Source: Butyrivibrio sp. (lineage in GTDB: Bacteria > Bacillota > Clostridia > Lachnospirales > Lachnospiraceae). From it: a DNA stretch of 64,000 bases. A program made the position numbers and the translations under genes. Below the pieces are notes generated by a model, which searched no databases, was not told the origin of the DNA, and worked only from the letters and a program-made list of their open reading frames with translations. This document shows positions 2,155-60,235 of this stretch, in pieces; the first letter of the stretch is position 1; each line of letters opens with the position of its first letter. The stretch lies in the NCBI RefSeq assembly GCF_017940685.1, contig NZ_JAGAYD010000281.1, forward strand, positions 1 through 64,000, given 5' to 3'.

Positions 2155-2182
2155 TGCCATGGTGACAGATCCTTCGTATAAA
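2155..2182 (+). promoter_or_regulatory. Promoter P1 of the shared TGCC/CGTATAAA class
   Basis: TGCC at 2155-2158 and CGTATAAA at 2175-2182 are separated by 16 nt. The same pair with 16-17 nt spacing occurs at 4124, 41504 and 60208, each upstream of a GG peptide or surface-protein gene. The -10 half resembles ECF-sigma -10 boxes (CGTA core) more than a sigma-A TATAAT. It probably drives the first GG peptide and phosphatase. Confidence 0.65.
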
Positions 2183-2226
2183 TATATAGCAACACTATAA
2201 ATGGCAGTGATCGGAGGATGATAGCT

Positions 2227-2382
2227 ATGACAAGAAAAGGTTATAACACAGCAGATTTCATCATGGAGCAGCTCTCATTTGAGGAACTTGGGCTCATTAC
2301 TGGTGGAGTAGGACTTGACAGCATATACATGATCGCAGCAAGCCCTAATACCACTCCGCCTCAGCCATGGTTTCCAAAGTGA
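2227..2382 (+). CDS. Double-glycine leader peptide GG1 (51 aa)
   Basis: Short peptide with a bacteriocin-type leader: QLSFEELGLITGGVG has the hydrophobic spacing and the Gly-Gly cut site typical of peptides exported by C39-peptidase ABC transporters. The predicted mature part is about 24 residues, Pro-rich at its end (PNTTPPQPWFPK). The strong ribosome site CGGAGG (2212-2217) sits 9 nt before ATG 2227; ATG 2218 is too close to it. It lies 45 bp downstream of promoter P1 and 39 bp upstream of the phosphatase gene. No peptidase-transporter is in the window. The product could be a pheromone, bacteriocin or other exported signal; its function is not known. Confidence 0.75.
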   Translation: MTRKGYNTADFIMEQLSFEELGLITGGVGLDSIYMIAASPNTTPPQPWFPK

Positions 2383-2421
2383 TCTCAAAATCCTTGGATC
2401 TGACTGGTACAGGAAAACTGT

Positions 2422-4122
2422 ATGAAGAGTAGTGAAACTAAAAAGAAAAGATCACTAAAGAGGGTGGCACTAAGTGCTATCCTCTTTGGTGCAATAATAA
2501 TCCTTTTTTCGGCGGTGCTTGTTGAGATAGTTCTTTTCATCTATCCGACCCTTGAAAACTACAAAAGGGAACTGACTCATGAGGGAGATTTTGCAACAGC
2601 GCTGATAGGTGATGAGTACCTGGAAAAAGTTTTTAGTGAGGTAAAGGACGTTTATTATAATACGCCTGAAGAGATACGGCATGAGCAGTATTCCGATGAG
2701 TATGTGAATATTATAAGGCCGTTGGTTGATGATGAATTTATGAATGCCAGGAACATCCTCACAACCTGCAGGGAAAGGTCAAAGCTTGAGAACGTATATT
2801 ATACCTTTTTCGATGATGAATATGAAAGACTTGTTTATGTCATCGACGGCAATGACAGAAATTTTGCCTTCCTTCCGGGAATGTGGCTGTCTGATGAAAA
2901 TGGCACCATTGATTCTCCCAAGGTGATAGAAAGAACCCTTAAGTCCAACTGGTATCTGCCTGTTACCTATGGAACTGTCCAGGGATGGACTGCTACCAAT
3001 TACACTGCAGTTTACGATTCTTCAGGAAATGTCATCGGCTATATGACCATGAACATCACCATCAACTCTTTTGCCAGACAGATAAAGACGTTCCTGGCTA
3101 TCTACATTCCGGTAATGGTAGTTGTGCTTGTTGGAATAGCTATTCTGGCAGCAGGTGCAATCAATAAGAGCATCATTGTTCCCATTAATAACCTGGCAGG
3201 AGCAGCAAGGAAGTATACATCCATCAGTAAGGTAGAAAGACATGTTGACACCTCAGTGTTTGAAGATCTCAGTATCAAAACTGGAGATGAGATAGAAGAG
3301 CTCTGGGAGACCATGGTAGACATGGAAGATGATGTATCCCAGGCAATGAAGCAGATAAGGGATGCAACGAAAAAGCAGGAGAGGCTTGCTACTGAGCTTG
3401 ACCTTGCAAAGGGTATCCAGGCTGCAGTACTGCCCACAGATTTTAAAGAAATATCTGCAAAGGATGAGTTTGAGCTTTATGCTTATATGACTCCTGCCAA
3501 GGAGGTAGGTGGAGACTTCTACGATTTCTTCATGATAGACGATGACCATTTAGGTCTGGTGATAGCAGACGTATCAGGAAAGGGTGTTCCAGCAGCTCTT
3601 TTCATGATGATCAGTAAGAGCCTTATCAAGACAAGGGCCATGGAGGGGGGAAAGCCTTCTGAGATACTTAAGTTTGTAAATGACAGTCTCTGTGAAGACA
3701 ATATAAACGATATGTTCGTTACTGTATGGCTGGGGATCCTGACCATATCCACAGGTGATGTGATCGCCGCAAATGCAGGCCATGAGTATCCGTTTATCAC
3801 AGGAGAGGATGGAAAACTTACCCTTTATAAGGACCGCCATGGCATGGTAATAGGCGCCATGGGCGGAATACAGTACAAGGACTATGGCTTTAAGCTTGCA
3901 AAAGGTCAGAGACTTTTTGTCTATACAGATGGTGTGGCGGAAGCTACCAATGAAAAAAATGAGCTCTTTGGCCTTGAACGTATAGAGGAGAGCCTGAACA
4001 GGTACGATGGGGACAGTCCTGAGGGACTTATCAGATACATGAAGGCTGAGGTTGACGCCTTTGCCGGATCCATGGAACAGTTCGATGACATCACTATGCT
4101 GAGCCTATGGTATAAAGGATGA
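2422..4122 (+). CDS. Membrane-bound PP2C/SpoIIE-type serine phosphatase 1
   Basis: 566-residue sensor phosphatase. An N-terminal membrane helix (about 14-36), an extracytoplasmic sensor domain (about 40-225), a second membrane helix (about 228-250) and a HAMP-like linker with coiled coil lead to a C-terminal SpoIIE/PP2C domain (about 345-565). Phosphatase signatures are AKEVGGDFYDFF, IADVSGKGVPAALFM, NAGHEYP, YTDGVAEATN and FDDITML, retaining the metal-binding aspartates. Family members dephosphorylate STAS-domain anti-sigma antagonists in partner-switching pathways; a STAS protein is encoded at 35872. It is paralogous over its full length, including the sensor (YLEKVFSEVKDVYYNTPEE), to the phosphatase at 60735. 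It lies in a cassette between two GG peptides, which may be its signals. Confidence 0.9.
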   Translation: MKSSETKKKRSLKRVALSAILFGAIIILFSAVLVEIVLFIYPTLENYKRELTHEGDFATALIGDEYLEKVFSEVKDVYYNTPEEIRHEQYSDEYVNIIRPLVDDEFMNARNILTTCRERSKLENVYYTFFDDEYERLVYVIDGNDRNFAFLPGMWLSDENGTIDSPKVIERTLKSNWYLPVTYGTVQGWTATNYTAVYDSSGNVIGYMTMNITINSFARQIKTFLAIYIPVMVVVLVGIAILAAGAINKSIIVPINNLAGAARKYTSISKVERHVDTSVFEDLSIKTGDEIEELWETMVDMEDDVSQAMKQIRDATKKQERLATELDLAKGIQAAVLPTDFKEISAKDEFELYAYMTPAKEVGGDFYDFFMIDDDHLGLVIADVSGKGVPAALFMMISKSLIKTRAMEGGKPSEILKFVNDSLCEDNINDMFVTVWLGILTISTGDVIAANAGHEYPFITGEDGKLTLYKDRHGMVIGAMGGIQYKDYGFKLAKGQRLFVYTDGVAEATNEKNELFGLERIEESLNRYDGDSPEGLIRYMKAEVDAFAGSMEQFDDITMLSLWYKG

Positions 4123-4123
4123 T

Positions 4124-4152
4124 TGCCGCAGGCAGAGACTGTTTCGTATAAA
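4124..4152 (+). promoter_or_regulatory. Promoter P2 of the shared TGCC/CGTATAAA class
   Basis: TGCC at 4124-4127 and CGTATAAA at 4145-4152, with a 17-nt spacer. It starts immediately after the phosphatase stop codon and precedes GG peptide 2. The following bases (AATATCC) extend the likeness to P1 (AATATAT). Confidence 0.65.
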
Positions 4153-4197
4153 TATCCGATAGCATAAAAGTGATGCCAGAAAGAATGAGGGAGAAAT

Positions 4198-4407
4198 ATG
4201 AGTAAGAATTTGAAAAACGCCATGATAGGTGAGGATGAGCTTGAGCAGGTTTCAGGAGGAAAAGGATCTACTGCCAAGCATATCATCAAAACATCCAACA
4301 TACAGCAGATTATCTGCAAGTACTGTAAAAAGCCGTTTTATGCTGATGTAAACAAGATACAGGTCACCTGCACAAACTGCAAAAAAAGAAATACTCTGGA
4401 TGGCTGA
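4198..4407 (+). CDS. GG leader peptide GG2 with zinc-ribbon-like tail (69 aa)
   Basis: The leader IGEDELEQVSGGKG matches the double-glycine type of export signal. The part after the Gly-Gly (about 46 residues) contains CKYCKKPFYADVN and CTNCKK, two CxxC pairs as in a zinc ribbon. A metal-binding or disulfide-bonded mature peptide is therefore likely. AGGGAG lies about 7 nt before the ATG. It has its own P2 promoter directly after the phosphatase gene. The combination of a GG leader and a zinc-ribbon cargo is unusual. It could be a bacteriocin-like product, an exported signal, or an intracellular protein with a fortuitous GG; the promoter context favours an exported product. Confidence 0.75.
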   Translation: MSKNLKNAMIGEDELEQVSGGKGSTAKHIIKTSNIQQIICKYCKKPFYADVNKIQVTCTNCKKRNTLDG

Positions 4408-4423
4408 TTTGGTCTTTATTTCA

Positions 4424-4452
4424 TTGAGCCATGCACTAAAAACAGATATAAT
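4424..4452 (+). promoter_or_regulatory. Sigma-A-type promoter for the HAD-like gene
   Basis: TTGAGC (4424-4429), a 17-nt spacer and a perfect TATAAT (4447-4452), ending 35 nt before the HAD-like start codon. It differs clearly from the neighbouring P1/P2 class. Confidence 0.65.
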
Positions 4453-4487
4453 TATTTTATAGTGACAAAAGCTGGGAGCGTGATTTC

Positions 4488-4964
4488 ATGAAGATTTCTT
4501 TTGATCTGGATGAAGTACTATTTGTCTCACCTGATACCTTTGAAGTCGAGCCGGAACTAAAGTTTCCACTTAATAAGATGTTTACCGAGAGACTTAGAAA
4601 AGGGACTGTATATCTGATAAATGAACTTCAGAAAAGAGGTTTTGAAGTGTGGGTTTACACTTCTTCATTCAGGAGTGACGTGTACATTAAGGGACTGTTT
4701 CGGCAGTATGGTGTTCACTTCGATCAGATAGTAAATGGCTATAGGCACAAGGCTGAGGTCCAGGGTAACAGAGAACAGCTCTTGCCTCAGAAGATGCCAC
4801 AGTTTTACAGGATATCACTTCATATAGATGACGAAGATGTTATTGTGCAGAACGCCAGAACTTATGGCTATAAGGTGCTTCAGATCTGTGATCCGGATCC
4901 TGACTGGACCACAAAGATCATTGATGAGGCTGAGCGCATCAGAAAGCTAGAAGAAGGGAAGTAA
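4488..4964 (+). CDS. HAD-superfamily-like hydrolase
   Basis: 158 residues. The N-terminus has the HAD motif I pattern FDLDEVLF (nucleophile Asp6, second Asp8). WVYTSS supplies a motif II Ser/Thr and HIDDEDVIVQNARTYG resembles motif IV with paired acidic residues. It is short with no obvious cap domain, as in the small phosphatases of this superfamily that act on proteins or small metabolites. Substrate unknown. It is preceded by its own sigma-A-like promoter and followed 6 nt later by a small unknown gene, so it probably forms a two-gene operon closed by the terminator at 5310. No clear link to the CIS genes beyond position. Confidence 0.75.
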   Translation: MKISFDLDEVLFVSPDTFEVEPELKFPLNKMFTERLRKGTVYLINELQKRGFEVWVYTSSFRSDVYIKGLFRQYGVHFDQIVNGYRHKAEVQGNREQLLPQKMPQFYRISLHIDDEDVIVQNARTYGYKVLQICDPDPDWTTKIIDEAERIRKLEEGK

Positions 4965-4970
4965 ACCTTT

Positions 4971-5303
4971 ATGACAGAACAAGATAAGAGAGAGAGAATA
5001 GCTTACGCTGAGTATCTTCTGGTGAAGAGTGGAGCAGCTCCAACGGACATAAAACCCAGAGGACAAGGCGAAAAAGAAAACAGACACATATACATCTTAA
5101 ATGATAATTATTATCGCATTGGAGAAGCTACTTTTGAGGGAATCGACGATCCATATGTGGTGGTCAGTTGCACGGACACCAAAAAGTACGCAGAATATGG
5201 ACTCTTTGATGACATCCATGCATTTGAATTTAACCTAAGTAATAAGGAGATGGAAAAAGAAATAAGGTTCGCCCTGGGACTGGACGAACTATTTCCAAGT
5301 TGA
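4971..5303 (+). CDS. Hypothetical small soluble protein (110 aa)
   Basis: Not recognised. The protein is hydrophilic with no signal peptide or membrane segment. Its middle (IYILNDNYYRIGEATF...DPYVVVSCTD) reads like a small alpha/beta fold similar to immunity or SMI1-like proteins, but this is only an impression. It starts 6 nt after the HAD-like gene and ends just before a terminator, so the two are co-transcribed. Confidence 0.65.
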   Translation: MTEQDKRERIAYAEYLLVKSGAAPTDIKPRGQGEKENRHIYILNDNYYRIGEATFEGIDDPYVVVSCTDTKKYAEYGLFDDIHAFEFNLSNKEMEKEIRFALGLDELFPS

Positions 5304-5309
5304 TAATGA

Positions 5310-5370
5310 CCGCCTTAATGACTGCTGACTCAGAAAAGTGTGAGACAGACAGTTTAAGGCGGCTTTTTTT
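5310..5370 (+). terminator. Rho-independent terminator before the CIS operon
   Basis: Outer stem CCGCCTTAA (5310-5318) pairs with TTAAGGCGG (5354-5362). An inner imperfect stem (CTGACTCA with TGAGACAG) fills the loop, and a T-run follows (5364-5370). Confidence 0.85.
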
Positions 5371-5523
5371 ATTGATGAGCTTTTCGCTGAAAAATTTATA
5401 AAAATTTTATTTCACATATTGCTAAAGCAGGCGCACTATTAATTCGTTAGTGTGTTATCATAGTATAAGGACTACTATATCTTGTGTTTTTGACTTTATG
5501 ATTCAGAGGGGGAATCTTGTAAA
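5371..5523 (+). promoter_or_regulatory. Leader region of the CIS operon with a dyad
   Basis: AT-rich 153-bp gap before the first CIS gene. It contains a dyad CACTA (5434-5438) / TAGTG (5448-5452) centred on TTAATTCG and, just downstream, a -10-like TATAAG (5464-5469) without a convincing -35. The TGCC/CGTATAAA motif of the GG-peptide loci is absent. The dyad is a candidate operator; the start point of transcription cannot be fixed from sequence alone. Confidence 0.4.
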
Positions 5524-7386
5524 ATGGCAAGCAATCAAGTGTATCCATTCGAAAGAAATCGTTATTATCCAGGCAAGATGTTGACAACAGCTGATTTCCA
5601 GGCTGAACAGAGCTATCACATCAACAAGCTTCGGTTCATGAACAGCCTTATGTATGGCGCTGGGATCGTGTGCGGTTGTAGCGTGGTCAATCTGGACGAT
5701 CTCTCAATCCTTGTAGAAAGCGGCGTTGTAATTGACGGTAGCGGCCGTGAGATAATAATCGATTCGTCTTTGGTAAAAAAGCTTTCGGCTATCGAGGGCT
5801 TTGATGATCTAAACAGCGACACTGCATGTCTGTGTGTGCGCTACAAAGAAAAAGACATTCATTCTGTTTATGCGGTAAGTCACAAGGAATCTGATCAGGA
5901 GTATGAGTTCAACCGCATAAGTGAAGGCTTTGAGATGTTCCTTGTAGACAAGGACGAATTTGACGAAGGCTTCGAAATGGAATCTGAATTCCTTCAGACT
6001 GAGAGCCTGTTTGTGGGCGCCAATTTTGAAGGAAGTATCACTATGCCTACAATTGTCAGCAAAGGCCGCAATGTAAAGGCAAGAGTAGAGATCCGCAAGA
6101 CAAGTTCTGCGGATGTGAAACTGTCATATAGAGCTATATTGGATATCCCCAGCTTTTCTGCCCCCGACGGATCCCAACAGATAGATATTGAAATAGATGA
6201 TATTGAACTTCCAGAAGGTGGAGTTTATTACAAGGATTTATGGATGGAAGTCCATAACAACGCAGGTATCGAGAGCAATGTGATCCTAAGAAGCGGATCA
6301 GCAACTGCTTTTGAAAACGACAAGGCTATTTCAGTAGAGAACAGCTTTGCCATGAAGGTAAGATTCTCAGAAGATACACCATCTTCTCTTATTAGAAGAG
6401 AAACAGGTAAGCTCTCCCTTGAAATGAGACAGGCTGTCACATCAGATGCCATAAAGCTTGCTGAGATCGATCTTATGAGAACTGACAGCGCTTATGTTAT
6501 CGAGAACATAAGAGAGGTTAAAAAGAACCAGTATATCGACCTTCCTGCCCAGACAGGTATCAGAAATGACTACATGGAGTTCTTCAATAAGGAAGTAGAT
6601 ATTAAGGAAAAGCACGGCGAGTCTTCCTTTGAGCCATCCAAGGCTCCAGTTGTAGAGTACACAGGGTCAGAGCTTAAGAACGTTGCAACAGGTGTACTTG
6701 AGATTCCTTTGGGAAGAGATGCAAGAAAGGGCGACATCAGATATTCAGGTGAGATCACCCATGGCCTTGGATCAGGTAATGTTTATGTTTCGATAGGTTA
6801 TGAGTATATTTCTCAGGACCAGACCCTTGGCGCAAGTGCCAAGAGCACTGTTTATGGCAATCCAGAGCTCTTTTCAAGACAGGCTCAGCAGCTTGTTGAC
6901 GCTGAGACTGCTGTAAGAGTGCTTAATGATAAAGGAAGCTTTGTTGTTGCAGCAAGACTTCTTAGAGATGTGGACTTTTTGGTTCTTACCTACAGATGGG
7001 TTGCTATCAAGTTCCCTTCAGGAGAAGAGCTTGAGGCAGCAGATTACTATGGCAAGTCCATCACTGCCAAGACTCCTACTGTAGTTATGAGACCTAGGGA
7101 AAATTACTACTTTGGAGTTCAGTTCAACAATATGGATCCATGCAGTATCACATACGAGCTCACAGCTCCCGGAACAGGAGAGGTTTCAACTGATGGTGTA
7201 TATTCTGCTCCTGCAAAAGAGGGCGTATATGAGATACGTATCTACTGTTCAGACATGCCTATGGTATGTACTTATGCTTATGCAATCGTTAAATCCACTG
7301 CTACGGAGGAGGATGTAGGAAGCATCAAGGAACAGGAAAGTGAGCCTATGGTCAAGCTACCGGATATGAAGGAATTCAACCTCTAA
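5524..7386 (+). CDS. CIS-associated protein with YPGKxLT N-terminal motif and Ig-like C-terminus
   Basis: 620 residues, first gene of the CIS operon, with GAGGGGG before ATG 5524. The N-terminus (RYYPGKMLTTADFQAEQ, then YGAGIVCGCSV and VVIDGSGREIII) matches a domain I recall from proteins encoded beside contractile injection systems in diverse bacteria, where its role is unclear (baseplate decoration or attachment). The middle is beta-rich. The C-terminal part (about 520-600), ending PCSITYELTAPGTGEVSTDG with GVYSAPAKEGVYEI, looks like an Ig-like (BIG-type) domain. There is no signal peptide, so it is presumably part of the particle and not conventionally secreted. It may be a fibre or tail-surface component; exact function unknown. 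Confidence 0.75.
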   Translation: MASNQVYPFERNRYYPGKMLTTADFQAEQSYHINKLRFMNSLMYGAGIVCGCSVVNLDDLSILVESGVVIDGSGREIIIDSSLVKKLSAIEGFDDLNSDTACLCVRYKEKDIHSVYAVSHKESDQEYEFNRISEGFEMFLVDKDEFDEGFEMESEFLQTESLFVGANFEGSITMPTIVSKGRNVKARVEIRKTSSADVKLSYRAILDIPSFSAPDGSQQIDIEIDDIELPEGGVYYKDLWMEVHNNAGIESNVILRSGSATAFENDKAISVENSFAMKVRFSEDTPSSLIRRETGKLSLEMRQAVTSDAIKLAEIDLMRTDSAYVIENIREVKKNQYIDLPAQTGIRNDYMEFFNKEVDIKEKHGESSFEPSKAPVVEYTGSELKNVATGVLEIPLGRDARKGDIRYSGEITHGLGSGNVYVSIGYEYISQDQTLGASAKSTVYGNPELFSRQAQQLVDAETAVRVLNDKGSFVVAARLLRDVDFLVLTYRWVAIKFPSGEELEAADYYGKSITAKTPTVVMRPRENYYFGVQFNNMDPCSITYELTAPGTGEVSTDGVYSAPAKEGVYEIRIYCSDMPMVCTYAYAIVKSTATEEDVGSIKEQESEPMVKLPDMKEFNL

Positions 7387-7399
7387 AGGGGATTAAAGA

Positions 7400-8245: not shown

Positions 8246-8257
8246 GAGAACCTATAG

Positions 8258-41503: not shown

Positions 41504-41532
41504 CGCCAGATATATCCGCTTATTCGTATAAA
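41504..41532 (+). promoter_or_regulatory. Promoter P3 of the shared TGCC/CGTATAAA class
   Basis: CGCC (41504-41507, in context TTCGCC), 17 nt, then CGTATAAA (41525-41532). It is identical in the -10 half to P1, P2 and P4. It lies in the 194-bp gap between the AAA+ gene and the surface protein gene, giving a 5' leader of about 130 nt in which I see no clear structure. Confidence 0.65.
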
Positions 41533-41672
41533 GGTATGAAAGGTGAAAATGTTTTTGTGAAGATTGCTGATTGGCATCAGGAAGTAATTTGCCGATATAC
41601 ATATGAGAGCATTTATGCTTTTGAAATAAAATAGCGATACTGTTCTTTAAGAGAGCTATGAGGGGAAATATT

Positions 41673-44600
41673 ATGAAATTGAGAAAACAGTTTAGTAATC
41701 TAAAGAAAGGCGCAAAGAAAGTATTCATTGGAATGCTGGTTTTGTGCCTTGTTTCTACTGCCACAGGCATTGGTTCCATATTTGCATACGCAGATGAATG
41801 TGAAAACCACTACGCAGATAGCTATAACTGCTACGATGAGCACACTCACATAGGAACCTGTGTTAACTGCGGAAAAGAGATCGAAGCAGAACACAGTTTT
41901 AACAGCGAAGGCAAGTGCACAGTATGTGGCTATAACCCAGGACCCCAAAATGATACCGATGATGATAATGATGATGGAGATGACGGCAGCGGAGATGACG
42001 GCAGTTCCTATGGTGAATGGCAGAAAAACGATGCGACAACTCATATTAGATATAACGACGCCGGAGAATCTGAAACTCAGGATCATCAGTTTACTGACTG
42101 GGTAAGTAATGGCAACGGAGTCATGGCAAGAGTCTGCACTGTCTGTGGCTACATGGAAGAGCAGGAAGATACCACAGGCGGAGATACTCATACCCATACA
42201 TATACCTACACTGATAACGGAGACGGCACTCACACTGCTGTCTGCTCAGAATGTGAAGATACCAAGACGGAAGCCCATAACCTTGGCAATTGGACATCTG
42301 ATGGTCGTGGCAACCATACCAGGACCTGTGCTCTTTGTGACTATTCAGAGGTAGAGCCATGCTCATTTGATGAGAATGGTATCTGTACAGTCTGTGGCGC
42401 TAATCAGGCAGACATGATCATTGCTTCTTCCAAGAAGGTAATGAAGTTTAGTGCAAGGAATATGTTTAGGGGACTAGGTGCGACAGCAAACGGCGGACTT
42501 GATGAGTCTGATTACGAAGGGCTATACACTTATTCTCAATTTTATTCTACTGCTCCGAGCGTGAATACAGGTCTTGTTTATGATGGTTCGGAACAAGAGC
42601 TGTTCACTATAGGTCAATTAAAAGATAGTAGTGATTTAACCGGAATGGGAGTTACGTATACAAATTTCATTCCGTTGGAAGCAGTGCCAGAAAGAAAACA
42701 GACAAATGCTGAAACTTATGTATACGAGCACACAATCAATTACAAATATACCGATCCTGATGATGGATCTGAAAAAAATGGATATGCGACAGGCAAATTT
42801 ACTGTTACGATTGATGCGGCAGATTTTGATAATTCTGTGACATTTACGCCTAATGCTGACTCTGTAGAATACGTAACACTTTCTGAAAGCGCACCATTTT
42901 TTAAATTAACTACTTTAAGTGGTGTATCGTTGGTGATGGACGTAGATTATGTATGCTCGTTTTCATCACCGGTTGGCAATACACCAGAAATTGGTACTAG
43001 TGATGTTGTTTTGACATTTTCACCATTTCCAGGTTCTGAAAACTTTACTTCCAGTAATGGTGTAACCAAGACTATTAAGTTTGGAGAAGTTGGCTACACA
43101 TTTAATAATTCTGCTCCACCATCCACTGGTACATATGATAGCAATGGGGCAATTACAGTAAAGGCACCCACTGGTTATAAAGTCAGCAACTCCGCAAATG
43201 GGGATTTTTCTGACCAGTTCACCTATGACGTTAAAGGGGAATCCACTCTGGATGTTTATTGTAAATATGAATCGACAGGGAAGATTGTTCACAAATCTCA
43301 TAGCGTTAAGATTAGCCGAGATTTGGTATTTGACGACTTTATAACATCTGAACCTGAATTTAATGAGGAAAATACTTATACCGGATCTGCTGTTACTTTA
43401 GCTTCGAAGCTGCCTGTTTTCAATCAGAACTTAATTAATGATCCATTAAATAAGATCACAAGTTTTTCATATTATTTCAAAGAAGTAACAAGCGGAGAAG
43501 AATTTATAAACTCCTCTCCGACAGCAACAGATTGTGGCGAGTATGGGTATAAACTGCACATTGTTTTCAAGGAAAATGGTGCGGATAAAGATCTTGAGGG
43601 TAGCAATACCTACACTACCAGAGTATTAAAAAGTGTTTCAGGGTCATACATGAAGTTTGAGCCAAAGTACCCAGATTATCAGTCATTAGATCCTTCCAGA
43701 GTACCGCTTTTGGCTGATGCTTTTGATGTATATGATGGTAGTACATTACTTCAACGTAATCATAACTACTCAGTTACTATTACTGAACCTTCTACAGCTC
43801 CTTATGAGACAGGCTCAGTACTTACCTATAAATTCGATGGTCTCAATGATGGGACTTCATATTATACCGGAACAACAACAAAAACACTTCCGGTAAGCAG
43901 GGTGAATGTTCTTTTAAATGGCAGTGCGCAAAAGAGTAGTTATGATGATGAAGTTATATTTACTGCAGATGGATACTCAATTTGTGATACTCCGGATGGA
44001 CATTTTAATACTGAGTTTCCTTTCTCAGAACCATGTACTAACTATTCATTGACACTGTATTTTATGAATGATGATACATCAAAAATAGTCAAACAGGATG
44101 TCACTGGTCTCAACATAGGACCTGCAGCAGCAATTAAGCTCCTCTATGACGGAGATGAAGAACTAAAGCCTTTCTATTACGATTCAGTAAGGATATCTGC
44201 TGAAGGGTATACCGTATCAAAGACAAGGAATGGTACGTTTAGCGAGAACTATCAGCTCAGTTATGATGCTTCCAAGAATATGGAACCGGTTGATGACTTT
44301 GATCTTTACTTTAAGAACAAAACCACCGGATTGGTTACGCTGAAAAAAGTCTCTGGTATTAATCTCTTTGAGTCGCCTACTATAGAGATTCTATATAATG
44401 GAACCGAGCAAAAAGACTGGTACTCTGATAATGTAACGATTACAGCTAATGGATATAAGATAGCTACAGAAACTAATAGGAGTTTGGTAAATAAGTACAC
44501 TGCGAAATATGTGATGTCAGGTAGTGGGACTGTTTCAGAACCGTTGTATTTTATTCCAAAAGATGCAACTACAGCTACTTCTTCAAATTGGAAGAAATTC

Positions 44601-46334
44601 AATATTGTGGTATCAATCGACAAAACCGCACCAACTGGTGTTATCAACCTTTCAAGTTACAGCAGCGATTCATTCACCACCAAGGACGCTGTTAAGGCCT
44701 ATACTAATGGATCACAGAAGGCAACTATTTCTGCATCAGATGCTCTGTCAGGAATTGATTACATTCACTACTATGTATCAGACACCTTCTATTCATCACC
44801 ATCTGATGTAAAGGCTGCTATTTCAGAAAAGAGCGGAGCGTGGAGAACTTACTCTTCATCCTCACAGCCGGCACTTGTAAAAGATAAGAACAATTACATT
44901 TACGCAAAGCTTGTAGATAAGGCGGGCAATGAGACCATCATCTCCCTTGGCAATATCCTTTACGACACTGTAGCTCCTAAGATGACTACAGCCAAGGTTA
45001 CTCCATCATCGAGTGACTCATCCAAGACCATGATCGGCCTTGCAGGAACAGATAAGCTTAGTGGAATCAACAGATTTAAGTATGTCTTTAAAGAAAAAGA
45101 AGAAGGTAAGAAGTACGACACTCCAGGCAAAGACTGGATGTTTGACAATGGTGAGGTAGTAAAGACATCAGAAGAGAAGGACGGAACTTCTGTTGCAAGT
45201 ACATCAATAGATGCTCTCGATTCTGAAAAGACATATCTTTTCTACTTCATAGCTGTTGACAGAGCTGGAAACATAAGTGATGTCATGACCCAGGAAGTTA
45301 AAGGTGAAGCTGCCTCATCCAATAAGAACAGCGGATCAGGTGCATCAGGCGGCAGCAGCGCTGGTGCAAATGGCCTTACTCCTGCACCTAATGGAATTGC
45401 AGGTGGCGGATCAGGTTCAGGCAGCAAACAGGGCGGTAGCTCTGGAGCATCATCAGGCGCAGGCTCATCTAAGTCTTCAAAGAGCAGCAAGAGCTCCCAG
45501 AGTGCTCTTGGTGACAAGGACAGAGAGATCAACAGGAATCCTTACATTGCTGAAGCAACTGGCAATGTAAAGATTGGAATAAATGAGACCAGTGGCTGGA
45601 ACAAGATTGCCAGCGAAGTTAATAAAGCAGATAAAGGCGCAGTCGTTGAAGTTGAGATGGCAGGTCTTTCAAATGTATCCAATGAGCTCTTCACCTCCAT
45701 GAACAACAGAGACGTGCAGGTTAAACTCCGCATGGCTGAAGATGTTGAGTGGGAGATCAAGGGCGAAGAGGTTCCAGATGCCAGAAGTGACATTGACATG
45801 GGAGTAAGACTGGGCAGCAGGAATATTCCTGAGCAGATCATTGCAGATGTAGCTGGAACCAATCCTCATGTGGAGTTTTCTATTAACCATAATGGAGATT
45901 TTGGATTTGTTGCGACTATAGCAGTGCCTGTAGGTGAGTCTAACAAGGGCATGTACACAACTCTTTACCACTACGACGAGGCAAAGAAAGAACTTGAAGT
46001 AGCAGGCGATGGAAGAGTAGATGACAGAGGATATGCTAAGTTCCCTCTTACTCACGCTTCAGATTACACAGTTGTAATAACTCCTGAGAGGATACTTACA
46101 GCAGCAGAAACTGATGCACAGACCAATACACTTGTGGGAGCAGAAGCAGAAAGTCAGAGCAGCCAGTATCTTGATGGGGCAAGACTTCGTCTTACAGATC
46201 TCTTCAGGATCAAGGGCAGCATGAGGATCTGGCTATTCTTCATAGCTCTCTTAAGTGCAACAATATGCATGGTAATTCTGTATCTGCCAGCACTTCAGTC
46301 ACGTAACCAAAACGACCAAGGAGACTTATTCTGA
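41673..46334 (+). CDS. Large secreted Cys-motif surface protein with C-terminal membrane anchor
   Basis: 1553 residues. Signal peptide (about 1-43; KKVFIGMLVLCLVSTATGIG). Residues about 45-250 contain at least five CxxC motifs with His and Thr spacing (CVNCGKEIEAEHSF, CTVCGYN, CSECEDTKTEAHN, CALCDYSE), as in repeat modules of Lachnospiraceae surface proteins. A long central part is built of beta-sandwich-like units (LYNGTEQKDWYSDNVTITANGYK type). Ig-like domains at about 980-1200 (SDALSGIDYIHYYVSD, TDKLSGINRFKYVF) precede a Gly/Ser-rich linker. A C-terminal membrane helix (about 1514-1537) ends the protein. Start ATG 41673 follows AGGGGA (41661-41666); ATG 41658 lies before that site. Probably an adhesin or displayed receptor. 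Confidence 0.8.
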   Translation: MKLRKQFSNLKKGAKKVFIGMLVLCLVSTATGIGSIFAYADECENHYADSYNCYDEHTHIGTCVNCGKEIEAEHSFNSEGKCTVCGYNPGPQNDTDDDNDDGDDGSGDDGSSYGEWQKNDATTHIRYNDAGESETQDHQFTDWVSNGNGVMARVCTVCGYMEEQEDTTGGDTHTHTYTYTDNGDGTHTAVCSECEDTKTEAHNLGNWTSDGRGNHTRTCALCDYSEVEPCSFDENGICTVCGANQADMIIASSKKVMKFSARNMFRGLGATANGGLDESDYEGLYTYSQFYSTAPSVNTGLVYDGSEQELFTIGQLKDSSDLTGMGVTYTNFIPLEAVPERKQTNAETYVYEHTINYKYTDPDDGSEKNGYATGKFTVTIDAADFDNSVTFTPNADSVEYVTLSESAPFFKLTTLSGVSLVMDVDYVCSFSSPVGNTPEIGTSDVVLTFSPFPGSENFTSSNGVTKTIKFGEVGYTFNNSAPPSTGTYDSNGAITVKAPTGYKVSNSANGDFSDQFTYDVKGESTLDVYCKYESTGKIVHKSHSVKISRDLVFDDFITSEPEFNEENTYTGSAVTLASKLPVFNQNLINDPLNKITSFSYYFKEVTSGEEFINSSPTATDCGEYGYKLHIVFKENGADKDLEGSNTYTTRVLKSVSGSYMKFEPKYPDYQSLDPSRVPLLADAFDVYDGSTLLQRNHNYSVTITEPSTAPYETGSVLTYKFDGLNDGTSYYTGTTTKTLPVSRVNVLLNGSAQKSSYDDEVIFTADGYSICDTPDGHFNTEFPFSEPCTNYSLTLYFMNDDTSKIVKQDVTGLNIGPAAAIKLLYDGDEELKPFYYDSVRISAEGYTVSKTRNGTFSENYQLSYDASKNMEPVDDFDLYFKNKTTGLVTLKKVSGINLFESPTIEILYNGTEQKDWYSDNVTITANGYKIATETNRSLVNKYTAKYVMSGSGTVSEPLYFIPKDATTATSSNWKKFNIVVSIDKTAPTGVINLSSYSSDSFTTKDAVKAYTNGSQKATISASDALSGIDYIHYYVSDTFYSSPSDVKAAISEKSGAWRTYSSSSQPALVKDKNNYIYAKLVDKAGNETIISLGNILYDTVAPKMTTAKVTPSSSDSSKTMIGLAGTDKLSGINRFKYVFKEKEEGKKYDTPGKDWMFDNGEVVKTSEEKDGTSVASTSIDALDSEKTYLFYFIAVDRAGNISDVMTQEVKGEAASSNKNSGSGASGGSSAGANGLTPAPNGIAGGGSGSGSKQGGSSGASSGAGSSKSSKSSKSSQSALGDKDREINRNPYIAEATGNVKIGINETSGWNKIASEVNKADKGAVVEVEMAGLSNVSNELFTSMNNRDVQVKLRMAEDVEWEIKGEEVPDARSDIDMGVRLGSRNIPEQIIADVAGTNPHVEFSINHNGDFGFVATIAVPVGESNKGMYTTLYHYDEAKKELEVAGDGRVDDRGYAKFPLTHASDYTVVITPERILTAAETDAQTNTLVGAEAESQSSQYLDGARLRLTDLFRIKGSMRIWLFFIALLSATICMVILYLPALQSRNQNDQGDLF

Positions 46335-47219: not shown

Positions 47220-50200
47220 TTGCCACCTGTAATACCAGAAGATGCAACGTTAGCGGTTCAAAAAGACAGACAGAAGGACATTTTTGTCAACCAGAGAAAT
47301 GAAGACTACCAGGCTAATCTGGATAGATTTACTAATGGTGAAGTTTCTTTTGATGAACACTTTATACGAACTCAGGCAAGAGGCCAGCAGGATTTTTACG
47401 GCGAGTATGAACGCAAGTGGAAACAAAAGCCTGATGGTTTTATTGTTGCGCCTCCAATTCAGGTTGAACCAGAGGAAATCAGGCTTAATAACACCAAGCT
47501 TTCTTATTGGGACAGAAAAGAGCGAAAAGCGTCTGTAAATGCCAGTTACGATGCCTGGAGCAGGAAGATGGCAGAGTCTTCTGCGTATGATCTTCGGCTG
47601 GAGGACACTCTTTCTGAAGAAGAAATAGCAAAAAAACAGGCTAAGCTATGGAAGAAGAATCCTGAAGCAGAACTTAAGCATGAGTATAAGTCTACGTCTT
47701 CAACCTTTGATCTTATGAAGAGCACAGCAAAACTTTCTGCCAAGGAGAACGCCAAGAAAACCCTTGTAAATGAGGCGATGGAAGGCAAGGAGGTAAATCC
47801 GCTTTTTAAGCAGTATATGAATCATTTTCTTGCTGTTGCACCTCAGCTGGTAGCGCTAGAGACCGAGGGACCCGGGCAGAATGTGCAGATCACTGAGGCG
47901 TCGAAGGAAGCATTTAAGGCCTTCATAGAAAGAGCTATGGAAAATCCTGTTGAGGTTTTAAAGGAGGCGGTATCAGATCATCTTTTCTCCTTCAGACAGA
48001 TCCAGGACAAGCTTCTTGATAAGAAGGCAATGGCGCAGAAATTCGATGAAGTCAAGGAACTGCGAGACAGATTTAAAGCTATCACAGATCTTTTTACCGA
48101 AAGAGATGATGAGATGGGAAAAGCTTTTAAAGAACTTAGTGAAAACCAGGAAGAAGCTCCCCATGACAATATCCTTTTTGCAAAAGCCCTGTATCAGAGA
48201 ATTGACGCTGATATGCGTTTTTGCCTTGAAAACAACAAGATGAAATTCCGCGATAATGGATCACTCGTTGACAGAAGGAAAACTAAAAATCTTCATATTG
48301 CTGTTGATGGAAAGCAGTCAGCCAGCCTCTTAAGGGCTGTAAAAGCAAACGCAACACAGGAGCAGCATGATGATGTTGAGAGATACTGGGATCAGAAGTG
48401 CAAAAAGCTCCTTATGGATGATAGTTCAAAAGAGACAAAGGCAGATAAGGACTTTGTTGATAACTATCAGATAGCAACTGCCGTTACTGCTATTAAGGAT
48501 CAAAAGAGAAGTAAGGTTAAAGGCAAAGAAAATACGGGACTCTTTGATGATCTGTGTGATAATGCGGATCAGATTGCCCTTGCTGTGGCACAGATAGACA
48601 AAGAACTTGCAAAATCAGAGAACATTTTTCAGCAAAAGGCAGCTGAGTTTAAGGCTCGACCTATGGCCAAGGCTCAGCTTGAAAAGTACCTGCAAAAGAG
48701 AAAAATCCAGCAGGTAAATCTTCTTGAGAGGGCAGCAGGAATAATCAATGCCCTTAACTACCTTGCCGGAGCTGAGCAGCTTAAGGCTAATGGCCGCCAG
48801 GTTCTTGATGAGAACAGGAAGGTAAAGAGCAAGGTTACTACAGTTACAAGGAATAATACGACTGATGAAGCCTTGGTAAATGAATTTGAACAGGTTGAAT
48901 TTATCAAAGAGGAGATGTTTGGAAGAAAAGAGATCATGGGGCAACTTTCCCAGAGTGCCTTGACTTTTAAGGACACTAAGAACATGCTCCTTGATAAGTT
49001 CAAAGACAAGGTTGACGGAAGGCTAAAGAATCTCCTTGAAAGAGGAAGTGCTGAGCTAAGGGTCAATTACATTACTATGCAAAAAACCAACCTGCTTGAG
49101 CTTGATTATGACAGAGTATGCCAGTTACTTGACCAAGTAACCACTGTTGAAGAGTATACTCAGGCTCTAAGATCTAACATCACAGCCAACAATCAAAATG
49201 CAGATAAACTGTACGCTAAGCTGAACAATAAAAACCTTGATCAGATGACTGATAAGGAGCTTGAGTATTTCATAAGGGATTATAAAAATCTTCAAAAATC
49301 TATTTATGCTGCTAACAAGATGAGGAAGATGAAGCCAGGTATAAGCAACTTTACGCTGGATGTACTCCTTAAGAATAACAGAACAGTGCAGGATGTGGAA
49401 AAAGATAAGAAAAATGACCTTATCACAAACTTCAAGTTCAAGATGATAAGCGATATGGTCAATAAGTACCGTTGGGAATATATTACAAATGAAGTACAAG
49501 CTGGAAGTTCTGATTCAGAACTGCTTAGTCCCGCTGAAAAAAGTAAGCTGGGTAAATTAAAGACTGAACAGTCAAGACTTTATTACATCAAGTCTCTTGC
49601 ATTACAGGCAGATAATCTGCACGGCAAACATTTTGGAGAGTTTGATGAAGCTCTTAATAATGATGAAGCTTTGGCAGAACTTCATTCTTCCAGGCATCAA
49701 GCTGCTGAGCAGCAAATGCAAGATGGGCTTCATGAAGAGGAATTCGATATCCAAGATGAGTTTAAAGAGTATACCAAGGAGGAGAGAAAGGCACGAAAGA
49801 ATAAGAAAAACACAGTTCTTGCAAATGATTTTGACGAGAAGACTGAAGAAGAACGTGTAAGGGATCGCGATTACGTACTGAGGAATAAGTATGTAAGGAA
49901 GTATGGCAGTGATATTCTTCCATACTTTGAGCAGAAAATGCGAGGAATGCCTAATTATAAGGATAACTGCCTTGGAAAGATCTCCAATGAAGTACAAAGG
50001 TTCATACTCTGCGAAAATTTTGGTAACTTTAAGACAGATGAGAAAGCTCTTGATGAGGTGCTGAAAGATTCTGCAAAGACAGAGGAAGAAAAGACATTTT
50101 TATCTATTTTTAAAGAAGCTTACAAGAACCTTAGTACAAGCGGCTATGTTGACAATATCATAAATGAGCTCGTTCCTAAAAAAGCTCTTAAAAACGCTGA

Positions 50201-52184: not shown

Positions 52185-52205
52185 TATATTTTGGAGGGGT
52201 TAATA

Positions 52206-52358: not shown

Positions 52359-52362
52359 TTCT

Positions 52363-52707: not shown

Positions 52708-52709
52708 TC

Positions 52710-54815: not shown

Positions 54816-54844
54816 ATGTTAAATTTTTTGTAAATAATCTAGCA

Positions 54845-54886: not shown

Positions 54887-54920
54887 AAATTATCAGCACA
54901 AGGCTTTTATAGGAGGCACA

Positions 54921-55424: not shown

Positions 55425-55470
55425 ATATAGAAACATATCATTACAAACGTAGTAAGGAAAGGGAGAGCAC

Positions 55471-56502: not shown

Positions 56503-56563
56503 TGATGTATATGCAGCCCGAATCACATGCTGATGAGGGCGTGAGAAAATGATACGAATGTGA

Positions 56564-56601
56564 GCCTGCTCCTTTGCCAAAGGCAACTTTAATGAGCAGG
56601 C
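56564..56601 (+). ncRNA. Hairpin in the purM-purN gap
   Basis: GCCTGCTC (56564-56571) pairs with GAGCAGGC (56594-56601); the loop holds a smaller TTTGCC/GGCAA pairing. No T-run follows. It lies in the 127-nt gap between purM and purN and may be a processing site or a leader structure for purN. Confidence 0.45.
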
Positions 56602-56629
56602 GATCAGGTTTGCGAAGGAACAGAGCAAA

Positions 56630-57280
56630 ATGAAGATAGCTGTACTTGTGTCTGGAGGCGGAACCAATCTTCAGGCCATAATAGATGGAATAAATAATGG
56701 AACTATCACTAATACAGAGATTTGCCTTGTGTATTCCAATAACCCTGGAGCATACGCTCTTGAGAGAGCTAAAAAGGCTGGAATACCAAGCGTTTGCAAG
56801 TCACCCAAGGACTATGAGACAAGGGATGCTTTCAACGAAGCTCTTTTACAGACCCTTGTGGATGCAGATCCTGACCTCATCGTTTTAGCTGGATGTCTTG
56901 TGGTTATTCCAGAGAGCGTAGTTAAGAGATTTCAGGGAAGGATCATCAATATCCATCCATCTCTTATCCCATCATTTTGCGGAACGGGATTTTACGGACT
57001 TAAAGTACACGAGAAGGCTCTTGAAAGAGGCGTAAGGGTTTCTGGCGCCACTGTTCATTTTGTTGATGAGGGCACAGACACAGGTCCTATCATCTTACAG
57101 AAGCCTGTAATGATAAGAGATGATGACACAGCGAAAACTCTTCAGCAGCGCATTATGGAGCAGGCTGAGTGGAAGATACTTCCAATGGCTATTGATCTTA
57201 TTGCTAACGGCAAGGTAAGTATTACAGATGGTCATGTAGTGATTGATGGTTATGATGACAAGGTTCTCTCAGAACTATAA
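56630..57280 (+). CDS. purN: Phosphoribosylglycinamide formyltransferase
   Basis: 216 residues: VLVSGGGTNLQAIIDGI, the formyl-THF region INIHPSLIPSFCGTGFYGLKVHEKALERG, and SGATVHFVDEGTDTGPII. The catalytic His/Asp pair is in HPSL and DEGTDTG. Transfers a formyl group to GAR. It precedes purD by 29 nt with AGAGG before the next ATG. Confidence 0.96.
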   Translation: MKIAVLVSGGGTNLQAIIDGINNGTITNTEICLVYSNNPGAYALERAKKAGIPSVCKSPKDYETRDAFNEALLQTLVDADPDLIVLAGCLVVIPESVVKRFQGRIINIHPSLIPSFCGTGFYGLKVHEKALERGVRVSGATVHFVDEGTDTGPIILQKPVMIRDDDTAKTLQQRIMEQAEWKILPMAIDLIANGKVSITDGHVVIDGYDDKVLSEL

Positions 57281-57309
57281 ATGGGGATAATAGAGGAAAG
57301 AGGCTAGGT

Positions 57310-58587
57310 ATGAAAGTTTTGATCGTTGGTGGAGGCGGAAGAGAGCATGCAATTGCTGAAGCCGTATCCAGGAGTAAGCAGGTAGACAAGATTTACTGTG
57401 CGCCGGGTAATGGCGGAATTGCGGAGCTTGCTGAGTGCGTTCCGATAACTCCAATGGAGTTTGATAAACTTGTTGCTTTTGCAAAAGAAAACAAGATTGA
57501 CCTTACAATCGTTGGCATGGACGATCCACTGGTTGGAGGAATCGTTGATGCATTTGAGGCTGAGGGCCTTAGGGTATTTGGACCAAGAAAGAACGCAGCT
57601 ATCCTTGAGGGAAGCAAAGCTTTTTCCAAGGACCTTATGAAAAAGTATGGTATTCCTACAGCTGCCTATGAGACCTTTGATGATCCTGCAAAGGCTCTTT
57701 CATATCTTGAAAATGCCAAGTTCCCAATTGTCTTAAAGGCAGATGGACTGGCTCTTGGAAAGGGCGTTCTTATCTGTAACGACCTTGAAGAAGCAAAGGC
57801 CGGTGTAAAAGAGATCATGGAAGATAAGAAGTTTGGCTCAGCAGGTAACCACATGGTTATTGAAGAGTTCATGACAGGCCGTGAAGTTTCAGTTCTTTCT
57901 TTTGTTGATGGTAAGACCTACAAGCTTATGAGTAGCGCGCAGGACCACAAGAGAGCTGGCGATGGAGATACAGGACTTAACACTGGCGGAATGGGTAATT
58001 TTTCACCAAGTCCTTTCTATACAGAGGAAGTAGATAAGTTCTGCAGAGAACATATCTATGGCAAGACTGTTGAGGCTATGGCCAAGGAAGGCAGGGAGTT
58101 TAAGGGAGTTATCTTCTTTGGACTTATGCTTACTGAGGATGGCCCTAAGGTACTTGAGTACAATGCAAGATTTGGAGATCCTGAAGCTCAGGTGGTGCTT
58201 CCAAGACTTAAAACTGATATAATCGATGTTTGTAATGCATGCATAGATGGAACACTTGGTAGTCTTGATCTTGACTTTGAGGATAAGGCTGCAGTGTGCG
58301 TTGTCCTTGCAAGTGATGGATATCCACTTAGCTATGAGAAGGGCAAGCTCATAAGAGGACTTGAAAACTTTAAGGGCAAGGAAGGCTATTATTGTTTCCA
58401 TGCTGGCACCAAGGCTACTCCTGAAGGAATAGTGACAAATGGTGGCAGAGTACTTGGCATAACAGCTAAAGGTGACACTCTGAAAGAGGCCCGTGCAAAA
58501 GCATATGAGGCTACAGAGTGGGTAGACTTTGATAATAAATACATGCGCCATGATATTGGTAAGGCGATCGATGAAACGGAGGAGTAA
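57310..58587 (+). CDS. purD: Phosphoribosylamine-glycine ligase
   Basis: 425 residues, ATP-grasp enzyme: VLIVGGGGREHAIAEAVSRS, KADGLALGKGV, GDGDTGLNTGGMGNFSP and KVLEYNARFGDPEAQVVLPRL. Makes GAR from phosphoribosylamine and glycine. The next gene starts 3 nt after its stop, suggesting read-through into the SH3 protein gene. Confidence 0.96.
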   Translation: MKVLIVGGGGREHAIAEAVSRSKQVDKIYCAPGNGGIAELAECVPITPMEFDKLVAFAKENKIDLTIVGMDDPLVGGIVDAFEAEGLRVFGPRKNAAILEGSKAFSKDLMKKYGIPTAAYETFDDPAKALSYLENAKFPIVLKADGLALGKGVLICNDLEEAKAGVKEIMEDKKFGSAGNHMVIEEFMTGREVSVLSFVDGKTYKLMSSAQDHKRAGDGDTGLNTGGMGNFSPSPFYTEEVDKFCREHIYGKTVEAMAKEGREFKGVIFFGLMLTEDGPKVLEYNARFGDPEAQVVLPRLKTDIIDVCNACIDGTLGSLDLDFEDKAAVCVVLASDGYPLSYEKGKLIRGLENFKGKEGYYCFHAGTKATPEGIVTNGGRVLGITAKGDTLKEARAKAYEATEWVDFDNKYMRHDIGKAIDETEE

Positions 58588-58590
58588 GGT

Positions 58591-60069
58591 ATGAAAAATC
58601 TAAGAAAGAGAGTATTGTCACTTGGGCTGTCAGTTATAGTTTCAGCAGCCGTTTTCGTATCAGCAGGCCTCTCAGCTTATGCTTATACTGAGACTACTGG
58701 TACTGTCAGTCAGGATAATGTAAAGGTACGTGAATCTGCCAGCACAACTTCCGCTCAGGTATCAAGCCTCAAAAAAGGCAATACAATTGAAATTGTGGAT
58801 GAGGCTACAGATGCTTCAGGATATGTATGGTACAAGATCCGTGTAAATAAGAGCGAGTATGGATATGTAAGAAGTGATCTTGTTTCCAAGGCAGGTGGAT
58901 CTTCTTCATCATCTTCATCAACAACATCTAATGAATCTCAGTCTAATGCAGCTGCAGCAGAGCAGCTTCCAGCAACTACTGCAACAGCTGTTGATGCTAA
59001 GAGCGCTACCATTACAGAAGAGAGCGTCAATGTTCGTGAGGGTGCAGGCACCAAGTACAATTCAGTCGGTAAAGTTACTAAGGGTGATACAGTTACAATT
59101 ACTGGTGAAGCCACTGGAACAGACAATAAGACCTGGTATCAGGTTACATTTGGTAGCAGCAACAAGACAGGATATGTAAGAAGCGACCTTTTACAGGTAA
59201 GTGAAGCAGCCCCTGAGGAAACTACAGAAGGCGGCGAGGGCGCTGAGGGAGCAGAAGGAGAAGGTGAAGCTACTGAGACTCCAGAAGAGAGCGAAGCTTC
59301 AGAAGAGGAAAATAATGACCCTGCAGTAACAAGTGAAGCTGGTGACGGCCACTACTCACTGGTTTATCTTACAGATGATGAGAGCGGAGAACCTATCTGG
59401 TATCTCTATGACAACATAGAAGGCTACAGAGTTAAGGTCAATGAACTTATTGACGCAGCTAAGTCAAGTGATGAGGTCAACAAGCTTGTTAAGACTAACA
59501 ACAACTACAAGACAATCCTTATAATCCTTGCTGTAGTTATAGCAGCACTGGTTATCGGACTTATAATAATGGCTCTTAAGCTCAGGGATTCTCTGTACTA
59601 TGAAGATGAAGAGGATGAGCAGGAATATGACCGCTATGCTCAGCAGAGAAGAAGGGCAAGACCTGACGACGATGAAGAAGAGGATGAGCGTCCTCAGAGA
59701 CGCGTAAGACCTTCTGATGAAAGAACTGTAAGACCAAACCGTGATGAGGATCCAAGGGCCGCAAGGGCAACCAGACAGCCAAGAAGAGATGAGGATGCTG
59801 AGGATAGGCCTGTTAGACCAAGAAGACCAGTAAGCGCTTCTGATGATGAACAGCGCCAGGCAAGACCATCAAGACCTGTAAGAAGGGATGATGAGGACAG
59901 ACCAGTAAGACCAAGAAGACCTGAGGGCGATGCTGATGGCAGAAGAAGCTATCGCGATGCTGATGCTGAGGCTCCTGTCAAGGAAACTCCAAAGCGCAGA
60001 GCCAAGAACTTCATCGGGGATGAGGATGATTTTGAGTTCGAATTCCTTGATCTTGATGATGATAAATAA
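58591..60069 (+). CDS. Secreted/membrane protein with two SH3 domains and Arg/Asp-rich tail
   Basis: 492 residues. Signal or anchor (about 10-32; LGLSVIVSAAVFVSAGLSAYA), then two bacterial SH3 domains (about 35-95, with GTVSQDNVKVRESASTTSAQ and YGYVRSDLV; about 135-195, with ESVNVREGAGTKYNSVGKV and TGYVRSDLL). A Glu-rich linker, one membrane helix (TILIILAVVIAALVIGLIIMALKL, about 309-332) and a tail of about 160 residues dominated by Arg, Asp, Glu and Pro (RPVRRDDEDRPVRPRRPEG) follow. The tail is probably cytoplasmic and disordered and may bind nucleic acid or acidic partners. Followed by a terminator. Confidence 0.82.
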   Translation: MKNLRKRVLSLGLSVIVSAAVFVSAGLSAYAYTETTGTVSQDNVKVRESASTTSAQVSSLKKGNTIEIVDEATDASGYVWYKIRVNKSEYGYVRSDLVSKAGGSSSSSSSTTSNESQSNAAAAEQLPATTATAVDAKSATITEESVNVREGAGTKYNSVGKVTKGDTVTITGEATGTDNKTWYQVTFGSSNKTGYVRSDLLQVSEAAPEETTEGGEGAEGAEGEGEATETPEESEASEEENNDPAVTSEAGDGHYSLVYLTDDESGEPIWYLYDNIEGYRVKVNELIDAAKSSDEVNKLVKTNNNYKTILIILAVVIAALVIGLIIMALKLRDSLYYEDEEDEQEYDRYAQQRRRARPDDDEEEDERPQRRVRPSDERTVRPNRDEDPRAARATRQPRRDEDAEDRPVRPRRPVSASDDEQRQARPSRPVRRDDEDRPVRPRRPEGDADGRRSYRDADAEAPVKETPKRRAKNFIGDEDDFEFEFLDLDDDK

Positions 60070-60080
60070 TTGAATTTATA

Positions 60081-60128
60081 GACAACGCTTTTTATCCGAA
60101 AATTTTTCGAAAAGGCGTTGTCTTTTTT
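60081..60128 (+). terminator. Terminator after the SH3 protein gene
   Basis: GACAACGC (60081-60088) pairs with GCGTTGTC (60115-60122), extended by T/A pairs and an inner CGAAAATTTTTCG-type hairpin, then a T6 run to 60128. Confidence 0.88.
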
Positions 60129-60151
60129 ATAAAAATTCAGAAAGTCTTAAT

Positions 60152-60189
60152 AAAGGGCGCGGTACAAGCCCTTTTGCCTATGATATACT
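60152..60189 (+). promoter_or_regulatory. Extended -10 promoter-like site with inverted repeat
   Basis: TGATATACT (60181-60189) is an extended -10 box. Just upstream AAGGGC (60153-60158) and GCCCTT (60168-60173) form an inverted repeat over the -35 position. AAAGGGCGCGG (60152-60162) recurs at 60466-60476 upstream of the next peptide gene. Possible second promoter for GG3 under repressor control. Confidence 0.4.
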
Positions 60190-60207
60190 TTTTACAAGAA
60201 AAAGTTT

Positions 60208-60235
60208 TGCCATTAGTGTCAGAAGTTCGTATAAA
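60208..60235 (+). promoter_or_regulatory. Promoter P4 of the shared TGCC/CGTATAAA class
   Basis: TGCC (60208-60211) and CGTATAAA (60228-60235) with a 16-nt spacer, in the context TTTTGCCATTA and CGTATAAATAA. It precedes GG peptide 3 by 41 nt, matching the layout of P1 before GG peptide 1. Confidence 0.65.

Follow-up and report, generated by a model that had tools for sequence, protein, structure and literature searches.

The promoter-like motif that recurs at four loci in the 64,000-nucleotide stretch of Butyrivibrio DNA analysed here (the window, which is contig C140 of its own assembly of 3.67 Mb and 281 contigs) is almost certainly a real promoter class. We consider it likely that one ECF sigma factor encoded elsewhere in the same genome recognises it, and propose that a switch made of PP2C, STAS and RsbW-like proteins controls this sigma factor, which would drive a peptide-export regulon. 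The pairing of sigma factor and promoter rests on comparison among genomes, while the switch and export steps are drawn from gene context and protein families.

The initial annotation had placed an unusual motif, TGCC followed after 16-17 nt by a fixed octamer, at four positions, and all four sites were found exactly there on the plus strand: P1 (TGCC-N16-CGTATAAA, 2155..2182, with TGCC at 2155 and CGTATAAA at 2175-2182), P2 (TGCC(G)-N17-CGTATAAA, 4124..4152, octamer at 4145-4152), P3 (CGCC-N17-CGTATAAA, 41504..41532, octamer at 41525-41532) and P4 (TGCC-N16-CGTATAAA, 60208..60235, octamer at 60228-60235). The octamer is identical at the four sites, the spacer measures 16 nt at P1 and P4 and 17 nt at P2 and P3, and each site lies just upstream of a start codon, with 44, 45, 125 (or 140) and 41 nt, respectively, between the end of the octamer and the start. 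YGCC-N16/17-CGTATAAA was observed four times in the window versus a mean of 0.007 and a largest count of 1 in 300 first-order Markov sequences. The octamer alone was observed six times versus 0.81 expected; its remaining two copies (13122, plus strand, and 47361, minus strand) are within long ORFs, and neither is preceded by a GCC at the correct distance. All four sites are conserved in genome G233, and an ungapped comparison of P3 with that genome showed that the box and the downstream DNA match, whereas the upstream DNA does not. The motif as first written is present but slightly too narrow, a T before GCC and an A after it being usual; the off-consensus members are P2 (GCCG) and P3 (CGCC), and the A was a requirement of the genus-wide search described below. 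The consensus consists of an A-rich tract, TTTTGCCA, 14-15 nt and TCGTATAAA.

Throughout the own genome, GCC-N16-CGTATAAA occurs 13 times against 3 for the reversed form, and the N17 version 5 times against 2. Two of these 18 sites lie inside ORFs of at least 150 aa (contigs C182 and C228), one (C14) is part of a hairpin-like repeat and is followed by no gene on its strand, one (C238:7561) has no clear target, one (C29) points to the contig end, and the other 13 precede starts. A scan of 80 Butyrivibrio genomes for GCCA-N14/15-TCGTATAAA yielded 236 matches versus 22 for the reversed control, which gave at most 3 per genome, and the motif counts per genome were two-peaked. The 100 stretches that we fetched cover 101 of these 236 matches, namely the 96 of ten genomes and 5 of the 8 in G231; among them there are 99 different site sequences. 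The expectation in the initial annotation that such hits would not be equally common inside coding regions was borne out, since only three of the 99 unique sites of relatives fall in ORFs of at least 200 aa. In 93 of the 99 cases the site is followed, at a median distance of 49 nt (25-110 nt in 82 of the 93), by an ORF whose start is ribosome-site-like; a few of these ORFs are probably spurious. In columns outside the search pattern, the 76 N16 sites carry T at -1 (94%), -2 (83%) and -3 (72%) and are A-rich at -11 to -8. A survey with the spacers 17 and 18, which are off the usual spacing, found a match in 29 of 200 genomes of the family, with counts of 0-3 and the maximum of 3 in the own genome and in G122.

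The candidate reader of these promoters is a 157-aa protein encoded on the minus strand of contig C5 of the own genome (C5:14536-15006), one of 7 Sigma70_r2 matches there. It was classed as an ECF sigma factor on having sigma2 and sigma4 domains (PF04542 and PF04545/PF08281) and nothing else, and it is apparently a small, undescribed transcription factor; no published account of the regulon was found in the literature searched, outside which most subscription journals lie. A motif site adjoins its gene: counted from the sigma stop codon, the GCC box starts after 9 nt and CGTATAAA after 28 nt, and the site leads into the gene of a small protein with an AAG-ended leader (the AAG protein). A close ortholog (at least 70% identity) is present in 24 of the 80 genomes, and every one of these 24 has 5-15 motif matches. 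Among the other 56, which include four genomes with sigma relatives of 32-48% identity, two have at least five matches (G231 with 8 and G263 with 7), G201 has 2 and the rest have 0-1. Fisher's test gives p = 2e-18 for this association, a value that counts genomes as independent despite shared ancestry and so is not a true probability. The initial annotation's view of the motif as an unusual class of promoter, its -10 box being ECF-like, is supported in that motif presence tracks the candidate sigma gene. In G041, which belongs to another genus and has a sigma factor of 50% identity (ISYGILKLEHRKA), a GCC-N16-CGTATAAA site likewise lies between the sigma and AAG genes; the named records of relatives are all Butyrivibrio (10/10). 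Where the AAG gene lies apart from the sigma gene, in G205, G211, G238 and G243, it has the motif all the same. These comparisons make it very probable that the C5 ECF sigma factor reads the motif. In G221, the sigma locus is found in three copies (L172, L186, L187) that share at least 2.36 kb of identical DNA, each 3 to 6 kb away from the end of a contig. The locus may therefore be mobile or repeated, and may be lost from binned assemblies.

The -35 box offers a second comparison. The recognition helix reads LSYG[VI]xKLRHREA in all 24 close orthologs and aligns as ISYNSCKxHHK in G254, G229 and G257, where the sigma factor is 43-48% identical and 0-1 standard motifs were found; by the look of the alignment, sigma2 is well conserved, unlike the sigma4 helix. 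In G254 and G229, the AAG promoter has a changed -35 but an unchanged TCGTATAAA. A scan of the 80 genomes for TTGNNC-N16-TCGTATAAA gave 9 matches in G254, 4 in G229 and 2 in G257 (reversed control: 0, 2 and 2), and elsewhere 15 matches over 14 of 77 genomes, with no more than two each (control 0-2), six of which are GCC sites in another register. Over all 80 genomes the pattern is not enriched (30 matches versus 37 in the reversed control), and because it had been suggested by further G229 sites, G229 is not independent. G254 is the only independent positive for the changed -35; G229 is weak and G257 is not above control. Read post hoc, 13 of the 15 matches in the three genomes are TTGTAC or TTGTCC, against none of the 15 elsewhere. 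The -35 box thus appears to differ where the recognition helix differs, clearly by scan in G254 only.

The genes that follow the four sites all lie on the plus strand. P1 precedes a 51-aa peptide with a double-glycine-type leader (LSFEELGLITGG; 2227..2382) and no family match, and then a membrane PP2C phosphatase of the SpoIIE family (2422..4122; PF07228, E 3.6e-46), the outer region of which is weakly Cache-like, below cutoff; homologues of this phosphatase come after motif-driven leader peptides in two loci of relatives (L264, L279). Downstream of P2 lie a 69-aa peptide with the leader IGEDELEQVSGG and two CxxC pairs (4198..4407), a HAD-like protein (4488..4964) that is 73-79% identical to genes of C39-exporter loci in relatives (L319, L321, L323, L324) and has Pfam HAD matches below cutoff, and a 110-aa protein (4971..5303) that is 36-41% identical to the partner of the HAD-like gene in exporter loci. 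The P3 target is a 1558-aa protein (41658..46334) whose start looks signal-peptide-like by eye. P4 is followed by peptides of 61 aa (leader LSEDELNEVTAG; 60277..60462) and 53 aa (leader LSDEDLDKVAGG; 60517..60678) and by a second membrane PP2C phosphatase of the SpoIIE family (60735..62429; E 1.4e-46), which shares 39% identity with the homologue that the first has in G233. Relatives of both PP2C genes and of the HAD-like gene were found in exporter and sigma loci. We also considered whether a large protein at 47220 is related to large products after other sites; it had no blastp match to them at E 1e-6.

Several further features of the window were observed. Both P4 peptides carry AGLTRP near their ends. 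A contractile injection system cluster (16749-41478) encodes Pvc16_N, a tail sheath, a gp19-type tube, Phage_base_V, baseplate J and an AAA ATPase; P1 and P2 precede this cluster and P3 comes directly after its ATPase gene. Just before P1 (53-2136) are genes for a cNMP-binding protein and then for a protein with PAS and adenylate/guanylate cyclase domains, possibly a cyclic-nucleotide input.

Across the 99 sites, the first product is a protein with a double-glycine (GG) leader in 32 cases, an AAG protein in seven and another protein in 54, six sites having none; the GG regex matched 13 of 277 other small ORFs as a control. A crude rule marks 22 of the 54 other products as signal-bearing, and this group also includes wrongly called ORFs and GG proteins that the regex missed (for example, in L245). 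Two CxxC pairs occur in four of the 32 GG products, a W..L..YDxWE body in six and NLLY-type repeats in four. In the own genome, eight products bear an LxxxELxxVxGG leader or a near form (P1, P2, two at P4, C6, C177, C262:8529 and, in the AAG form, C5), and a ninth, C174:4750, follows a site with ACC in place of GCC. When eight peptides were scanned against curated families, the only cutoff reached was that of TIGR01847, a generic leader model, by one peptide (C174:4750); none reached that of a class-specific bacteriocin family. The sigma factor would accordingly be expected to drive four kinds of genes: those for small double-glycine-leader proteins; that for the small protein with the AAG-ended leader, usually its neighbour; those for secreted proteins and lipoproteins; and leader-peptide genes that have membrane PP2C phosphatase genes after them, the arrangement seen at P1 and P4.

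In relatives, the sigma gene is found together with an exporter and with the parts of a partner switch. Two loci, L317 (G223) and L318 (G209), carry in one run the AAG gene, the ECF gene, a C39 exporter, a second ABC protein, a 206-213-aa protein, a STAS protein and an RsbW-like HATPase. Families were checked in L317, the L318 members being look-alikes: the L317 exporter matches TIGR03796, the HATPase is HATPase_c_2 (RsbW-like), STAS is present, and the second ABC protein falls just below the TIGR03797 cutoff. In L320 and L324, PP2C, HATPase, a 207-aa protein, exporter and ECF genes lie within about 10 kb. Taken over the sigma-linked clusters of relatives, PP2C, STAS and HATPase are all represented. 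By coordinates, a C39 exporter lies no more than about 5 kb from the sigma gene in 8 of 24 genomes. PF03412 is present in all 24 close-ortholog genomes, and a C39 exporter also occurs in 38 of the 56 genomes that have no close ortholog. In the own genome, the sigma factor (C5), the exporter (C244, which like that of L317 passes the TIGR03796 cutoff) and the STAS gene seen (C221) are on separate contigs, and the PP2C genes are in the window. Near a motif site on C221 (L056:1727-3253), we observed this STAS gene together with a 402-aa protein that by eye has two repeats like the 207-aa family. In G129 (L079, by eye) and G256 (L185), other, distant ECF sigma genes stand directly before C39-type exporter genes, an arrangement that looks like a second ECF-exporter pairing, judged by eye in G129.

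The 207-aa family matches no Pfam or NCBIfam family. Its structure models are of modest quality (best pLDDT 73, the other four 50-60), and in a fold search no match reached E 0.001. The first match by E was an unrelated prenyltransferase (probability 0.23), and the anti-sigma-F factor UsfX was matched with probability 0.99, E 0.02 and TM-scores of 0.38-0.41 on the query. The predicted fold thus weakly resembles UsfX/SpoIIAB, and the 207-aa protein is possibly a divergent anti-sigma factor.

We propose the following working model. An outside signal would activate the PP2C phosphatases, which would dephosphorylate the STAS anti-anti-sigma factor; STAS would then capture the RsbW-like anti-sigma proteins, and the ECF sigma factor would be freed. 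For the leader peptides whose genes the sigma factor transcribes, cleavage and export would fall to the NHLM-type C39 ABC exporter. Because PP2C genes come after motif-driven peptide genes, the loop would probably be one of positive feedback. The parts of the model differ in strength: judged from leaders and gene context, export of the leader peptides by the C39 exporter is rather probable, while the case that the partner switch acts on this very sigma factor is evenly balanced.

The most serious competing explanation accepts the sites as promoters of this ECF sigma factor and makes the AAG protein its regulator, as a conventional soluble anti-sigma factor, with PP2C, STAS and RsbW controlling something else. 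Anti-sigma genes are often targets of their own sigma factor, as the AAG gene is, and AAG and sigma genes are neighbours in 18 of the 24 genomes (a regex identified 16 of these, inspection by eye two). The protein itself speaks against this role: it has no family match, and its conserved part, which closes with a leader-like LSDDEL..AAG, gives way to a variable tail that in G229 is zinc-ribbon-like. We therefore regard a conventional anti-sigma role as unlikely, and the broader notion that the AAG protein regulates the sigma factor in some manner as possible, with the balance leaning against it. A structure model of the protein was too poor to judge (pLDDT 61.5). In the G229 locus (L183:1066-1383), the tail joined to the AAG leader resembles those of some GG peptides. 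By analogy with FlgM, the AAG protein might be both a sigma binder and a C39 substrate, giving an ECF factor governed by RsbW and STAS a second, export-sensing brake; we hold this combination to be improbable.

That another sigma factor reads the motif, or that the motif combines an activator site with a sigma-A -10 box, we consider more improbable still. TATAAA within the -10 resembles a weak sigma-A box, and G231 and G263 keep the motif with no recognisable sigma ortholog (best matches E 1.4e-10 and 2.4e-5). Against such a reader, the motif tracks the ECF gene, its -35 differs where the ECF helix differs, and GCC-N16/17-CGTATAAA is absent from the six contigs that hold the own genome's other sigma factors. 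Sigma-A as the reader was rejected on the motif's -35, which is unlike that of sigma-A, and no SigB/SpoIIA-type sigma factor is obvious, judged by appearance, among the seven own sigma matches. An ECF gene near a motif site in G231 (contig C39 of that genome) was rejected as a substitute sigma factor, being by eye the counterpart of a different own ECF factor (C82). Chance matches or a repeat element, suggested by the short core and by TCGTATAAA alone not being enriched in the own genome (40 versus 80 for the reversed form), are refuted by the controls and have next to no likelihood, given the counts for the full motif, its position before starts, and spacers and downstream genes that differ among most sites.

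Returning to the preferred reading, in which the partner switch governs the ECF sigma factor, the system shares features with several known ones. As in ECF sigma factors (sigma-70 group 4), the protein has Sigma70_r2 and r4 only, a CGTA-type -10 and a candidate promoter beside its own locus. Usual ECF -35 boxes contain an AAC core, whereas the -35 here is TTTTGCCA or TTGTAC and lacks it, the core being a usual trait and not a strict criterion; a further difference is the linkage to STAS and RsbW-like genes in several relatives. The SigB/SpoIIA switch (RsbU-RsbV-RsbW) likewise has PP2C, STAS and HATPase_c_2-type proteins encoded together, but the sigma factor linked here is an ECF. As in NHLM/NHLP bacteriocin export, the exporter scores over the TIGR03796 cutoff and the leaders are of the double-glycine type; unlike there, some cargo is zinc-ribbon-like or of the W..L..YDxWE type, and expression appears tied to a dedicated ECF sigma factor. 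Sublancin is linked to ECF sigma factors. An excerpt of PMC4336743 concerns sublancin, and the main text of a survey of rumen bacteriocins (PMC13289728) is without the words sigma and promoter. With EcfG (ECF15) and its PhyR-NepR system, the present case would share an ECF factor under a partner switch; EcfG uses a sigma-mimicking response regulator, and partner switching is given for ECF15 only in the sections consulted of PMC8999054, whereas no PhyR or NepR was recognised by eye in the clusters here. According to the part of PMC3999984 that describes it, a Rhodobacter PP2C/STAS/HATPase system had its sigma factor not identified, and in a passage of PMC7406223 RsbW serves as the negative control for ECF partners, the reason being that the two were not known to interact.

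A signalling relay of this kind may be new for an ECF-type factor and, if the partner switch is true, it would join two regulatory systems so far treated as separate. If the AAG protein did act as a FlgM-like brake, export capacity would feed back on the sigma factor through it, as FlgM does for the flagellar sigma factor. That the -35 box and the recognition helix differ as a pair provides a natural experiment on how ECF factors recognise promoters. From sequence alone, our analysis gives Butyrivibrio, a main rumen genus, a promoter class together with a sigma factor and a candidate regulon, and it would tie odd leader-bearing mini-proteins and the promoters flanking a contractile injection cluster to one signal.
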